Source: Acidilobaceae archaeon
GTDB lineage: Archaea > Thermoproteota > Thermoprotei_A > Sulfolobales > Acidilobaceae
DNA length: 36,034 nt
Assembly (NCBI GenBank): GCA_026986415.1
Contig: JALSOR010000081.1
Location: 1-36,034 of the forward strand
Direction of reading: 5' to 3'
Shown here: positions 5,582 to 14,441 of the stretch, piece by piece
How positions within the stretch are numbered: the stretch's first letter is position 1
Layout: the number at the start of each line of letters is the position of its first letter
Notes under the pieces: model-generated
Seen by the model: the letters and a program-made list of their open reading frames with translations, nothing else
What the model was told of the DNA's origin: nothing
Databases searched by the model: none
Made by a program: the position numbers and the translations under genes

Positions 5582-5714
5582 TGGTCCCGCCGCGGGGATT
5601 CGAACCCCGGACCACCCGGTATCTGCGGGGGGACACGCTCCCATACAACGTGTCCCCCGGCCCTACGCCCGTGTCCCACTACAGCCGGGCGCTCTGCCGC
5701 TGAGCTACGGCGGG
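5582..5714 (-). tRNA. trnY: tRNA-Tyr (GTA) with a 58-nt intron after position 37; CCA encoded
   Basis: Acceptor CCCGCCG/CGGCGGG, D-arm GCTCAGCGGCAGAGC, anticodon stem CCCGG/CCGGG, GTA anticodon, T-arm CGGGGTTCGAATCCCCG, 3' ACCA. Intron 5621-5678 fits a bulge-helix-bulge: CTGT/GCAG central helix, bulges AG|T and AT|A. Confidence 0.93.
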
Positions 5715-10401: not shown

Positions 10402-10956
10402 GTGGGAGACAGGATGTTTTCACCCCTCCAGAGGCTCCTCCACCACGGCCCGGTACTCGTATACGGGGAGGCGGGATCGGGCAAGACACACCTAGCATAT
10501 GAGGCCTGTAAAACCATAATGCGAAACCGGGAATGCAGGCTCCTCGCGACAGAGCCCGGTACCAGGCTATTCCTGGAGCATGCCGGTCTAGCCTACGAAA
10601 ACATTCTAACACTGGACGCGCTAGCAAGGGAAGCAGCCTATAATGCTGTTAGCGGGCGGTGTAGTGTTGTCGACAGTATCAACTGGCATTATAGGGAGAA
10701 CCCGTCTCTCGGCTCCGCGCGGATGCTAGCGTTCACGAGCGCTATAATAGGGGGCTCCTGCGGGTTCGCCACCGCCCAGGTCTCAGAGGAGGACGGGGAG
10801 GTAAAGCCTTCGGGCTACAAGTATATCGTGCCGTGGTTCCCCGTTATAGCCCGCACGCTTAAAAGAGAGAATAGCGTTTTCCTGCTCGAGGTTTTAAGGC
10901 CTGAGAGGAAAGTATATGCTTTCAAACTTAGGGGTAAGAGTCTAGAATGGATCTGA
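10402..10956 (+). CDS. RecA/RadB-like P-loop ATPase
   Basis: Walker A VYGEAGSGKTHLAYEA; Walker B-like CSVVDSI; short RecA-core-only length. Confidence 0.7.
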   Translation: MGDRMFSPLQRLLHHGPVLVYGEAGSGKTHLAYEACKTIMRNRECRLLATEPGTRLFLEHAGLAYENILTLDALAREAAYNAVSGRCSVVDSINWHYRENPSLGSARMLAFTSAIIGGSCGFATAQVSEEDGEVKPSGYKYIVPWFPVIARTLKRENSVFLLEVLRPERKVYAFKLRGKSLEWI

Positions 10957-11462
10957 GAAGCCTGTTTGAGACGCTACTATACATACTCCCCGCGATGACC
11001 GCTAACGGGTCTCCAGTTGTAGCCTCCCGCTTCTACGGCAAGGGCACCCCCATCGATGGGGGGAGGAGCCTGGGAGGTAAGCGGCTGCTGGGAGACGGTA
11101 AAACGTGGGAGGGCCTCGCGACGGGAACTATTGTCGGGCTCCTAACCGGTATCATAATAGGGGTCCTTCTAGACCGGCCGGTAGCGTATTGGGCCTCTAT
11201 CGGAGCCCTCTCAGGATTCGGGGCGATGCTGGGGGATATTGTTGGAAGCTTTATTAAGCGTAGGCTAGGACTGCCGCGGGGGTCACCGGCGCCCCTGCTC
11301 GACCAGTTAGACTTCTATGTGGGGGCTCTCGTAGTCCTCTACTTTGTAGGGGTTCGATTAAGTCTTAGCTCTGTAATTATCTGGGCCGTTATCATATTCT
11401 TCCTCCACAGGGCAACCAACTATCTCGCATACAAGTTGAAGCTGAAGAGCGTCCCCCACTGA
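10947..11462 (+). CDS. carS: CDP-archaeol synthase
   Basis: LPAMTANGSPVVASRF, PIDGGRSLGGKRLLGDGKTWEG, GDIVGSFIKRRLGLPRGSPAPLLDQLDF. Confidence 0.95.
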   Translation: MDLRSLFETLLYILPAMTANGSPVVASRFYGKGTPIDGGRSLGGKRLLGDGKTWEGLATGTIVGLLTGIIIGVLLDRPVAYWASIGALSGFGAMLGDIVGSFIKRRLGLPRGSPAPLLDQLDFYVGALVVLYFVGVRLSLSSVIIWAVIIFFLHRATNYLAYKLKLKSVPH

Positions 11463-11471
11463 GCGGGCTGT

Positions 11472-11551
11472 GGGCGTCAGCTACGACCGCACACTTCATC
11501 CCCTCCTAGAGGGTTAAGGGTCCCTGTAAGCCCACCAGTCATCATACGCCC
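11472..11551 (-). ncRNA. C/D box sRNA candidate
   Basis: Minus strand: GGGCG T ATGATGA CTGGTGGGCTTACAGGGACCCTTAACCCTCTAGGAGGGGATGAAGTGTGCGGTCGTAG CTGA CGCCC. Consensus C box (ATGATGA) and D box (CTGA), directly flanked by a 5-bp GGGCG/CGCCC stem; C'-like GGATGA upstream of D; lies in the 102-bp gap between convergent genes. Confidence 0.55.
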
Positions 11552-11564
11552 TGGAGCCGAAGTG

Positions 11565-12098
11565 CTAGTTCTCATCGTCTAGCGACTCCAGGATTTCTTT
11601 TGCTTTACGATCAACATAAATATAAAGCTCGTCCAGTATGCCTAGCTCGTCCGCCCGCGTGTATGCGAGCTCGAGATTCCTCTCTGCCTGGTCCAGGTGG
11701 AGCGCGTCCACCCTTTCAGGATTCTTAACTGTCATTTCAAGCCCGTAAGATGCCCTGTAGAGTGGGGCCAGTACTCTGGCTTTTAGCGCGGGTGTCAGTT
11801 CCGACCAGCGCTTCGTGCACTGTGCGAGGAAGAGTGTCTCTGTCATGCCTCTAAGTATGAGTATCTTCTTAACCGTTTCGTCCTCGGAAGCCTCCGCTAG
11901 GGCGTCAAGCCTTATAAGGTTCAAGACGGACTCCGGGCTCGAGCATATCTTTTTCCTCTTCTCGAGCAGGAGACTCCTCAAGTCTTCATCCATAGCCTCC
12001 AGGTATGCCTGGAGCCGGCGCACAGCCTCCTCAACATCATCCTCCCAGTAGATTTCCTCTACTATCTTCCTGAAAGCCCTACTAATAGGGTCCTCCAA
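11565..12098 (-). CDS. Hypothetical helical protein
   Basis: 177 aa, balanced composition; TATA-like CAAGTATAAGG about 12126-12136 on the minus strand. Confidence 0.75.
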   Translation of the reverse strand: MEDPISRAFRKIVEEIYWEDDVEEAVRRLQAYLEAMDEDLRSLLLEKRKKICSSPESVLNLIRLDALAEASEDETVKKILILRGMTETLFLAQCTKRWSELTPALKARVLAPLYRASYGLEMTVKNPERVDALHLDQAERNLELAYTRADELGILDELYIYVDRKAKEILESLDDEN

Positions 12099-12542: not shown

Positions 12543-12830
12543 CTATCTTGTGACGTCTACAAGCTCTATCTTCTTAAGCCTGATACCGAGTATGTGCCTC
12601 TTATAGCCGCACTGGGTGCAGGTTATGCGGAGCACCACTTTCTTAGTGACCTTAGCGTACCTCTTCTGTTCCGGCCTTCTCTTGCTACCGTAACCCTCCT
12701 GCTTACGCATGTATCTCCTCTGTCCCTCGCTCATCGTCCTCCTCTTCCCATGCTTGTAGACCTGGACCGTGTGTACCGTGTGGGTTTTACATCTGGGGCA
12801 GTATGTTCGAATCCTCTTCGGAAACTTCAC
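12543..12830 (-). CDS. rpl44e: Ribosomal protein eL42 (L44e)
   Basis: GTG start at VKFPKRIRTYCPRCKTHTVHTVQVYKHGKRR...GYGSKRRPEQKRYAKVTKKVVLRITCTQCGYKR. Confidence 0.95.
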   Translation of the reverse strand: MKFPKRIRTYCPRCKTHTVHTVQVYKHGKRRTMSEGQRRYMRKQEGYGSKRRPEQKRYAKVTKKVVLRITCTQCGYKRHILGIRLKKIELVDVTR

Positions 12831-13321
12831 TCCTCCTCCCTCCACCCTCCTATGCACTGCTTACCTACCTTTATAGCTGTCGCTTCCACGGGCTCTGCAA
12901 GGCCCGCGGCATATAGTGCTGCCGCCTTCTCTAGGGGGAGCCTCGCTATTTCGCCCTCCTGTAAGACTGTGGGCCCGTACTGTACGACCCCCCTGATGAT
13001 CATGAGCGGGTCCTCTCCGAACGTCGCTATGAAGCCTGCAATGTATTTCGCGTAGAACTCTGTTATCCTTCTAACTATTCCTAGGATTCCAGCGTCTAGA
13101 CCGGAGTATTCGGTGTTCCATGAGAGGTCCTCTATCCTTGCCCGTGCCACTAGGCTGGAGACCTCTGAGAGCCTGCCTATAATCTCGCGGCAATAGTCTC
13201 TTCCAGCACTACAGTAGATGCTTAGCACTCGTTTAGCTTCTACTATATGCTCCAGGTTGAGGCTCTCATGGAGTCCCACAGCCGCCTTATAGGGTCCTCC
13301 CGCAGGGATACGCTCTGACAA
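12827..13321 (-). CDS. gins51: GINS complex subunit (GINS51/Gins15 type)
   Basis: Helical N-terminal domain then a C-terminal B-domain-like segment (EGEIARLPLEKAAALYAAGLAEPVEA); follows pcna and priS, as in other crenarchaea. Confidence 0.75.
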   Translation of the reverse strand: MSERIPAGGPYKAAVGLHESLNLEHIVEAKRVLSIYCSAGRDYCREIIGRLSEVSSLVARARIEDLSWNTEYSGLDAGILGIVRRITEFYAKYIAGFIATFGEDPLMIIRGVVQYGPTVLQEGEIARLPLEKAAALYAAGLAEPVEATAIKVGKQCIGGWREEE

Positions 13322-14441
13322 GTATTGACCCCCCAGTAATTCTAACCAGGCCCTTCCCCGCCAGGTGTAAGGCTACCCCGGCTGGGAGGCTCGAATGCTC
13401 CCCCTTCGCCCCTGAAACCTCCACGCTAAGGATACTAATAGGCTCCAGGCGGGTATTGTATTCTACCTCTACCTCCCCCTGGAAAGGGGTGAGGCTGAGG
13501 TTCGGCCTGAAGCCTTCCCGTACAGGTGCGACGAGGAAGTGGCCCTTACCGTTAAGCGTGCCATATATTCTCGTCAGCCTGCTCGGGTCTGCCGTCACCA
13601 TCGCGTCTATAGGCACGATGGCCTGGCGGATCGCATCCTCCACAATAACATCCCACTGCTGGCCGAACGCTTCCCTCATCCCTTTAGGCTTCCCGCTTGC
13701 ACGCGAGGCTAGGATGCGCGCAATCCAGCCTCTCAACCCTGGATCGCTTGGCGATGGGAAGGCCGGGTCCAGCATTTTCCTTGTCTTCCTACCCCGCCTG
13801 ACTATCGAGCCGGTGGGGAATAATGCTTCGACCCTCACGCCTTCCCCTGCAAAGTATGATGCTATCTGCCTCCTCTCCTCCCGGCCCAGCTCGAAGCACG
13901 CCTTGCAGTGGACTCTAACATGGTACCCTCTATGGCCGGTATAGTATGATTCTATCTTTTCCGGCTTGAGATCCCTCCTGATCATGGCTTCGAGCTTCGC
14001 GACCTCGCGGAGGCCTTCTATGAGGCACTCGTCCCCTAACAGCAGGGTACCATCAACATTCTGCGAGTTCTCACTGCAGGGCTCATAGTGGTCCAGGTCG
14101 AGGTCGAATAATAGTATCGCACCCCGGTATCCTTTCTCCTCCATCGTTTTTGCTTCTGGGAGGTCATAGTACGCGACACTATAGTACGCGTTTTTCGGCG
14201 CCTCCCTGGCGAGATACTCTTGCAGCTCGCCTCTAGACTGGAAGGATATGTGCCTCACGTAGGCCTCCGGCTCGAAGAGCTGGAAAGCGAACTCCCTATT
14301 AGCAATACTGTCCGGCTCCTCGACGCAGGGCTTCAGCCTATAGTATATCTTGTAGAGCGCCCTGACTAGTTCTTTAGTGTCAGCGGGCCCTCTAACCCTA
14401 TACTCCGCGGTCCTCCCTCTACTCGATCCTGGGCGATACAT
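13287..14441 (-). CDS. priS: DNA primase small (catalytic) subunit
   Basis: REFAFQLFEPEAYVRHISFQS, GAILLFDLDLDHYEPC, SYYTGHRGYHVRVHC, DAMVTADPSRLTRIYGTLNGKGHFLVAPV. Confidence 0.95.
   Translation of the reverse strand: MYRPGSSRGRTAEYRVRGPADTKELVRALYKIYYRLKPCVEEPDSIANREFAFQLFEPEAYVRHISFQSRGELQEYLAREAPKNAYYSVAYYDLPEAKTMEEKGYRGAILLFDLDLDHYEPCSENSQNVDGTLLLGDECLIEGLREVAKLEAMIRRDLKPEKIESYYTGHRGYHVRVHCKACFELGREERRQIASYFAGEGVRVEALFPTGSIVRRGRKTRKMLDPAFPSPSDPGLRGWIARILASRASGKPKGMREAFGQQWDVIVEDAIRQAIVPIDAMVTADPSRLTRIYGTLNGKGHFLVAPVREGFRPNLSLTPFQGEVEVEYNTRLEPISILSVEVSGAKGEHSSLPAGVALHLAGKGLVRITGGSILVRAYPCGRTL

Follow-up and report, generated by a model that had tools for sequence, protein, structure and literature searches.

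What, if anything, is encoded in the short gap between two convergent genes of an Acidilobaceae archaeon? We analysed a stretch of 36,034 nucleotides (contig JALSOR010000081.1; hereafter the window), within which carS ends at 11462 on the plus strand and an open reading frame for a 177-amino-acid (177-aa) protein ends at 11565 on the minus strand. A preliminary description had correctly recognized this arrangement and had placed in the gap an unannotated C/D box sRNA candidate, perhaps a variant or one with a single guide. From its sequence and that of its relatives, we are highly confident that the gap encodes a dual-guide C/D box sRNA of the archaeal type, and very probably this RNA guides two methylations to a single spot of 16S rRNA.

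Layout of the element and its locus

The features of the locus, with those of the RNA in minus-strand order, are as follows.

10947–11462, plus strand: carS, CDP-archaeol synthase (PF01864, E = 1.3e-43), the convergent neighbour, adjacent to the sRNA in each of the genus's five genomes
11472–11551, minus strand: predicted body of the C/D box sRNA including the terminal stem; matched in its own genome by covariance model R1 at 4.3e-16, the window being one of the model's 8 input sequences
11547–11551, minus strand: 5' arm of the terminal stem, GGGCG, which pairs with 11472–11476; covariation in 47 homologues
11539–11545, minus strand: C box ATGATGA, exact consensus; 43 of the 47 homologues parsed have RTGATGA or RTGAGGA
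11527–11537, minus strand: D' guide UGGUGGGCUUA, which pairs with 16S UAAGCCCGCCG (E. coli 871–881); predicted target G874; guide core conserved
11521–11525, minus strand: degenerate D' box: AGGG by family register, alternatively GGGA, shifted one base downstream; off consensus
11501–11513, minus strand: possible hairpin CCCTC-TAG-GAGGG in the long D'–C' spacer; present, not above chance in the window
11493–11499, minus strand: C' box ATGAAGT by family register, 12 nt from D as in relatives (which have RTGANGA); overlapped by GGATGA
11481–11492, minus strand: D guide GUGCGGUCGUAG, which pairs with 16S UACGGCCGCA (E. coli 891–900); predicted target G894
11477–11480, minus strand: D box CTGA, exact consensus; 46 of the 47 homologues parsed have CTGA or CCGA
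11472–11476, minus strand: 3' arm of the terminal stem, CGCCC, partner of 11547–11551; covariation in homologues
11565–12098, minus strand: gene for a conserved 177-aa protein, whose stop lies 13 nt before the sRNA on the same strand; likely transcript source

Read from 11551 to 11472, the minus strand runs GGGCG-T-ATGATGA-CTGGTGGGCTTAC-AGGG-ACCCTTAACCCTCTAGGAGGGG-ATGAAGT-GTGCGGTCGTAG-CTGA-CGCCC, with C' in the family register. The exact C box, exact D box and GGGCG/CGCCC stem that had been described are all in place on this strand. We searched the entire window, on both strands, for a C box followed 35–62 nt later by CTGA, with a flanking stem of at least 5 bp. The scan returned a single site, 11472–11551 on the minus strand, and the chance expectation of boxes plus stem, estimated from 300 order-2 Markov sequences, is 0.013 per window.

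The internal boxes, C' (ATGAAGT or GGATGA) and D' (AGGG or GGGA), are degenerate in the window species and canonical in most relatives. The C'-like GGATGA reported earlier is present directly upstream of the D guide, but ATGAAGT (11499–11493) is the better C' by family register and restores the usual 12-nt guide. The D' box had been called unclear. It is degenerate here, ending in GA in the remaining 46 parsed homologues and, in the family register, failing to do so in the window species alone, but the D' guide can be resolved and pairs with UUAAGCCCGCC (predicted Gm 874). The spacer between D' and C' is long, at ~20 nt. The internal hairpin described within it exists at 11513–11501, but it is not significant, being equalled by 25% of shuffled spacers (z = +1.2).

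The gene order is stable. Throughout the window's genus (five of five genomes) the sRNA is flanked by carS on one side and the 177-aa gene on the other. In four other genera of the window's family the sRNA sits beside the 177-aa gene in either orientation, and a homologue of that gene flanks the sRNA in genera g1, g7, g8, g13 and g14. The 177-aa protein has no match in Pfam and a sub-threshold match only in NCBIfam. We saw no TATA-like motif between the stop of its gene and the sRNA. Archaeal sRNAs commonly sit close behind an upstream gene, and most have no promoter of their own (PMC7994747); the transcript of this predicted sRNA is likely derived from the upstream 177-aa gene.

Two other loci in the window deserve mention in their own right. 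Positions 5585–5714 (minus strand) hold an intron-containing tRNA gene of 130 nt that was found by Rfam and missed by ARAGORN in bacterial mode. An open reading frame at 12827–13321 (minus strand), with a weak NCBIfam match to Gins15, adjoins the gene for the DNA primase small subunit (13287–14441), forming a replication gene pair.

Conservation across the order

Using a sequence-only covariance model built from eight members, we found homologues (E ≤ 0.01) in 87 of the 214 genomes of the order, spread over 42 of its 78 genera; the weakest matches in this order-wide list span just one half of the RNA. Clear copies also occur in three families (f12–f14) from other orders of the class. G050, presumably Ignicoccus hospitalis, has no match to this sRNA family. 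A DNA search of 60 relatives identified two guide stretches as the conserved parts.

Terminal stems of at least 4 bp form in 24 of the 47 parsed members, against a mean of 7.3 and a maximum of 18 in 5000 permutations of the 3' flanks among members; related members are not independent in this test, though their stem sequences differ widely (GTAGTG/CACTAC, GGGCGCGGC/GCCGCGCCC and TAGGGGC/GCCCCTA, for example). Across these 47 homologues the C/D boxes are conserved and the stems covary through compensatory changes, two of the signs by which the preliminary description had proposed to judge its candidate.

One copy within the window's genus has a different form. In G004 (L026/L048, downstream of carS), both guides are intact, recognisable C and D boxes are lost, and the copy is embedded in a long G+C-rich stem, GCGGCCCCC/GGGGGCCGC. 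This copy may be a decaying gene or a variant.

Conservation also decides whether the element could be a chance resemblance in a convergent gap, such as a site where transcription of carS or the 177-aa gene terminates. A position between two 3' ends and a G+C-rich hairpin would suit a terminator, but guides, boxes and a covarying stem recur in dozens of genomes, at many other loci, and 0.013 such sites were expected by chance. We rejected this reading as refuted by conservation and assign it next to no probability.

Two proteins that a C/D box sRNA would need, fibrillarin (E = 4e-105) and Nop5 (E = 5e-79), are encoded by adjacent genes on contig C43 of the same genome. These genes, and the boxes, guides and terminal stem conserved in dozens of genomes, uphold the C/D box identity first proposed.

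Predicted targets in 16S rRNA

We found no 16S gene or other rRNA gene in the window's own assembly, and no 16S gene in the other four genomes of the genus. Pairing between guides and targets was evaluated against the 16S rRNA of family and order relatives. The exact complement that had been offered as the D target, CUACGACCGCAC, occurs in ten sRNA-bearing genomes essentially just as the sRNA's own opposite strand. This exact search gave no target because rRNA is absent from most of the searched assemblies and because the true pairing has a G-U. Comparing the guides with rRNA, as had been advised, did locate sites in the 16S of relatives, with the D target, GUACGGCCGCAA, paired through one G-U.

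The D guide forms 10 contiguous pairs with 16S UACGGCCGCA (-16.0 kcal/mol), which is its second best 16S+23S site in G017, presumably Aeropyrum pernix, and joint best in G008. For the homologous D guides of G041 and G017, UACGGCCGCA is the best site. Within 23S, one site scores about equally with the D guide in one relative, and its place differs in another. The D' guide forms 11 contiguous pairs with 16S UAAGCCCGCCG (-17.8 kcal/mol), its best 16S+23S site in G017 and the longest pairing among the D' guides tested. The two target sites lie 20 nt apart, with the D' site upstream, and the window's guide pair fits 16S sites within 60 nt of each other better than 2992 of 3000 shuffled pairs.

In E. 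coli numbering, counted backwards from the universal site at 907, the N+5 rule predicts Gm at 894 (D) and at 874 (D', family register); reading the D' box as GGGA moves the second mark one base, to A873. The G named earlier as the D+5 nucleotide, opposite the fifth guide base, proves correct in the real target, where it is G894. The D guide covers the 5' side and loop of 16S helix 27, and helices 3, 18 and 27 are methylation hotspots according to a seven-species RNA-seq study (Dennis et al. 2015, PMC4644070).

Both targets sit in a region, GUUAAGCCCGCCGCCUGGGGAGUACGGCCGCAAGG, that hardly varies among the 16S genes of 19 relatives. All 19 carry the same D target, UACGGCCGCA, and changes in the D' target, of a single base each, are confined to G008 (AAGCCUGCC) and G042 (AAGUCCGCC). 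The guides themselves come in several types. Three types of D guide, UGCGGUCGUA (21 members), UGUGGCCGUA (21) and UGCGGCCGUA (2), each pair over 10 nt with UACGGCCGCA, and a fourth, UGCAGCCGUA (3), has one A-C mismatch with the target. The D' guide types GGUGGGCUU (37), GGCGGGCUU (8) and GGUGGGUUU (2) all pair with AAGCCCGCC. Core pairing is free of mismatches in 44 of 47 D guides and 47 of 47 D' guides, with G-U pairs shifting position among types.

This variation bears on the idea that a tRNA or mRNA is the real target. No exact D-guide complement turned up in the searched genomes, most of whose rRNA is missing, and some archaeal sRNAs do target tRNAs (PMC7994747). Both guides nevertheless find 16S sites 20 nt apart, and guide variants track those sites, which makes a tRNA or mRNA target highly improbable.

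Two side observations concern the D guide and its site. The full Watson-Crick D guide UGCGGCCGUA contains the palindrome CGGCCG and is found in just 2 of 47 members; nearly all the others have a G-U pair instead, 21 members at each of two positions. Avoiding the palindrome possibly limits guide self-pairing or over-stable binding. The 16S genes of G017 and G025 (L032, L240) carry an insertion after GGCUGAAA, near E. coli 908 and close behind the D target, and in these two genomes the predicted target abuts an rRNA intron site.

The suggestion that the RNA has a single guide is not supported, since the D' guide, despite the degenerate D' box, matches a conserved 16S site of its own, 20 nt upstream of the D target. 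The RNA could still be effectively single-guide in the window species, with the D guide (G894) active, the D' half decaying, and the spacer and weak hairpin left as debris. Such decay would fit a D' box (AGGG/GGGA) that alone among 47 does not end in GA in the family register, a C' off consensus, a spacer hairpin that is not significant, and the same-genus G004 copy, which kept both guides without recognisable C and D boxes. However, the D' guide is intact, its 11-nt pairing is the longest of the D' guides tested, and GGGA one base later still supplies the GA needed for a kink-turn. We consider this reading possible but on balance unlikely. Activity at G874 in the window species is less certain than at G894 because the D' box is degenerate.

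The locus combines C and D boxes, a terminal stem, a D guide whose N+5 position falls inside the duplex, a second guide with its own target (N+5 is G874 in the family register and shifts by one base with D' read as GGGA), together with genes for fibrillarin and Nop5 in the same genome. As a dual-guide sRNA, the RNA would be processed from the 3' end of the 177-aa gene transcript, bind L7Ae at the C/D and C'/D' motifs as it folds, and then recruit Nop5 and fibrillarin. The D guide would pair with 16S 891–900 (the 5' strand and loop of helix 27) and the D' guide with 16S 871–881, and fibrillarin would 2'-O-methylate G894 (D) and G874 (D') by the N+5 rule. Simultaneous binding at both sites might also hold this stretch of 16S open during small-subunit folding. 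We infer transcription, RNP assembly, methylation and the chaperone role from sequence.

That chaperone role might even be the main one, with methylation secondary and the sRNA serving chiefly to help helix 27 of 16S, and the strand upstream of it, to fold. Most members retain the two guides together though 16S is nearly invariant, and the two sites are 20 nt apart; a chaperone role for such sRNAs is proposed in PMC4644070. Against this, the register from box to target (N+5 on G) is kept in parsed members, which a pure chaperone would not need, and we judge the chaperone-first reading improbable. Our preferred reading, a dual methylation guide, would place two methyl marks at exact positions near the decoding centre, a prediction testable in cultured Aeropyrum.

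Relatives with altered guides and comparison with known sRNAs

Spacer hairpins are stronger in some relatives. G001 has a 7-bp hairpin, CTCCCCC/GGGGGAG, directly between D' and C', matched by 0.4% of shuffles, and the spacer hairpin of G177 is matched by 1.2%. By their sequence, strong hairpins abutting both boxes would give a k-turn in place of the usual k-loop. Both internal k-turn and k-loop forms at C'/D' are known (PMC8413462). Like the k-turn form, some homologues (G001, for example) close C'/D' with a stem, whereas the hairpin of the window is set off from D' and is not significant.

Guide order and guide identity also vary among families. The guides stand in the opposite order in f2 (G036, G056, G157, G139) and f3 (G037, G124, G128, G129, G134). 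At L219, L220, L221, L222, L224, L225 and L226 of these two families, the 894 guide comes first and the 874 guide second, each with its own boxes. Either circular permutation of the gene or independent assembly could account for this swapped order. In f9, genera g43 and g45 retain the D guide and have an altered or replaced D' guide; L214 and L209 of g43 keep the D guide for 16S 894 and carry CGGCGAGCAUC in place of the D' guide, a change of partner guide.

We propose, tentatively, that these sRNAs form an uncatalogued, order-wide orthologous family with nearly constant 16S targets, whose guides were swapped by circular permutation in two archaeal families with both targets retained. If true, the f2/f3 permutation would be evidence for circular sRNA forms feeding back into genome evolution.

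Searches of Rfam at gathering and permissive thresholds assigned no family, all matches falling below the gathering score; the unannotated element belongs to no Rfam family at threshold. Four entries, sR44 (RF01129), sR39 (RF01122), snoPyro_CD (RF00095) and sR12 (RF01147), share its box architecture, a likeness confined to the boxes. An Aeropyrum-type homologue scores 27.6 bits with sR44, below gathering, and the guides of sR44 differ. The predicted sRNA is a new member of a well-known class, its family is widespread in relatives and absent from Rfam, and its annotation adds one gene that Rfam missed.

That class is the archaeal dual-guide C/D box sRNAs targeting 16S, as set out in PMC4644070 and in a review (PMC7994747). 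The order C, D', C', D and the terminal stem are alike, as are guides of ~12 nt, two nearby targets in one rRNA with N+5 for each, and the helix 27 hotspot. Compared with the sRNAs in PMC4644070, the window's spacer is longer and its D' box is poorer than consensus; in the species set given there, just Ignicoccus hospitalis and Sulfolobus acidocaldarius are near the window organism. Both sources describe archaeal sRNA guides as evolving fast, with most predicted methylation sites unshared between species. A dual guide kept across many genera, with near-invariant 16S targets, offers a long-lived family for studying the co-evolution of guides and rRNA sites.

The swapped guides have a counterpart as well. 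Circular guide rearrangement has been proposed for one Methanopyrus sRNA (PMC4644070); Mka sR39/119 and sR88 are duplicate genes with circularly rearranged guides. The order is likewise swapped between f2/f3 and the other families, but unlike in those Mka genes, both guides here still match their targets despite the change of order, which runs along family lines.
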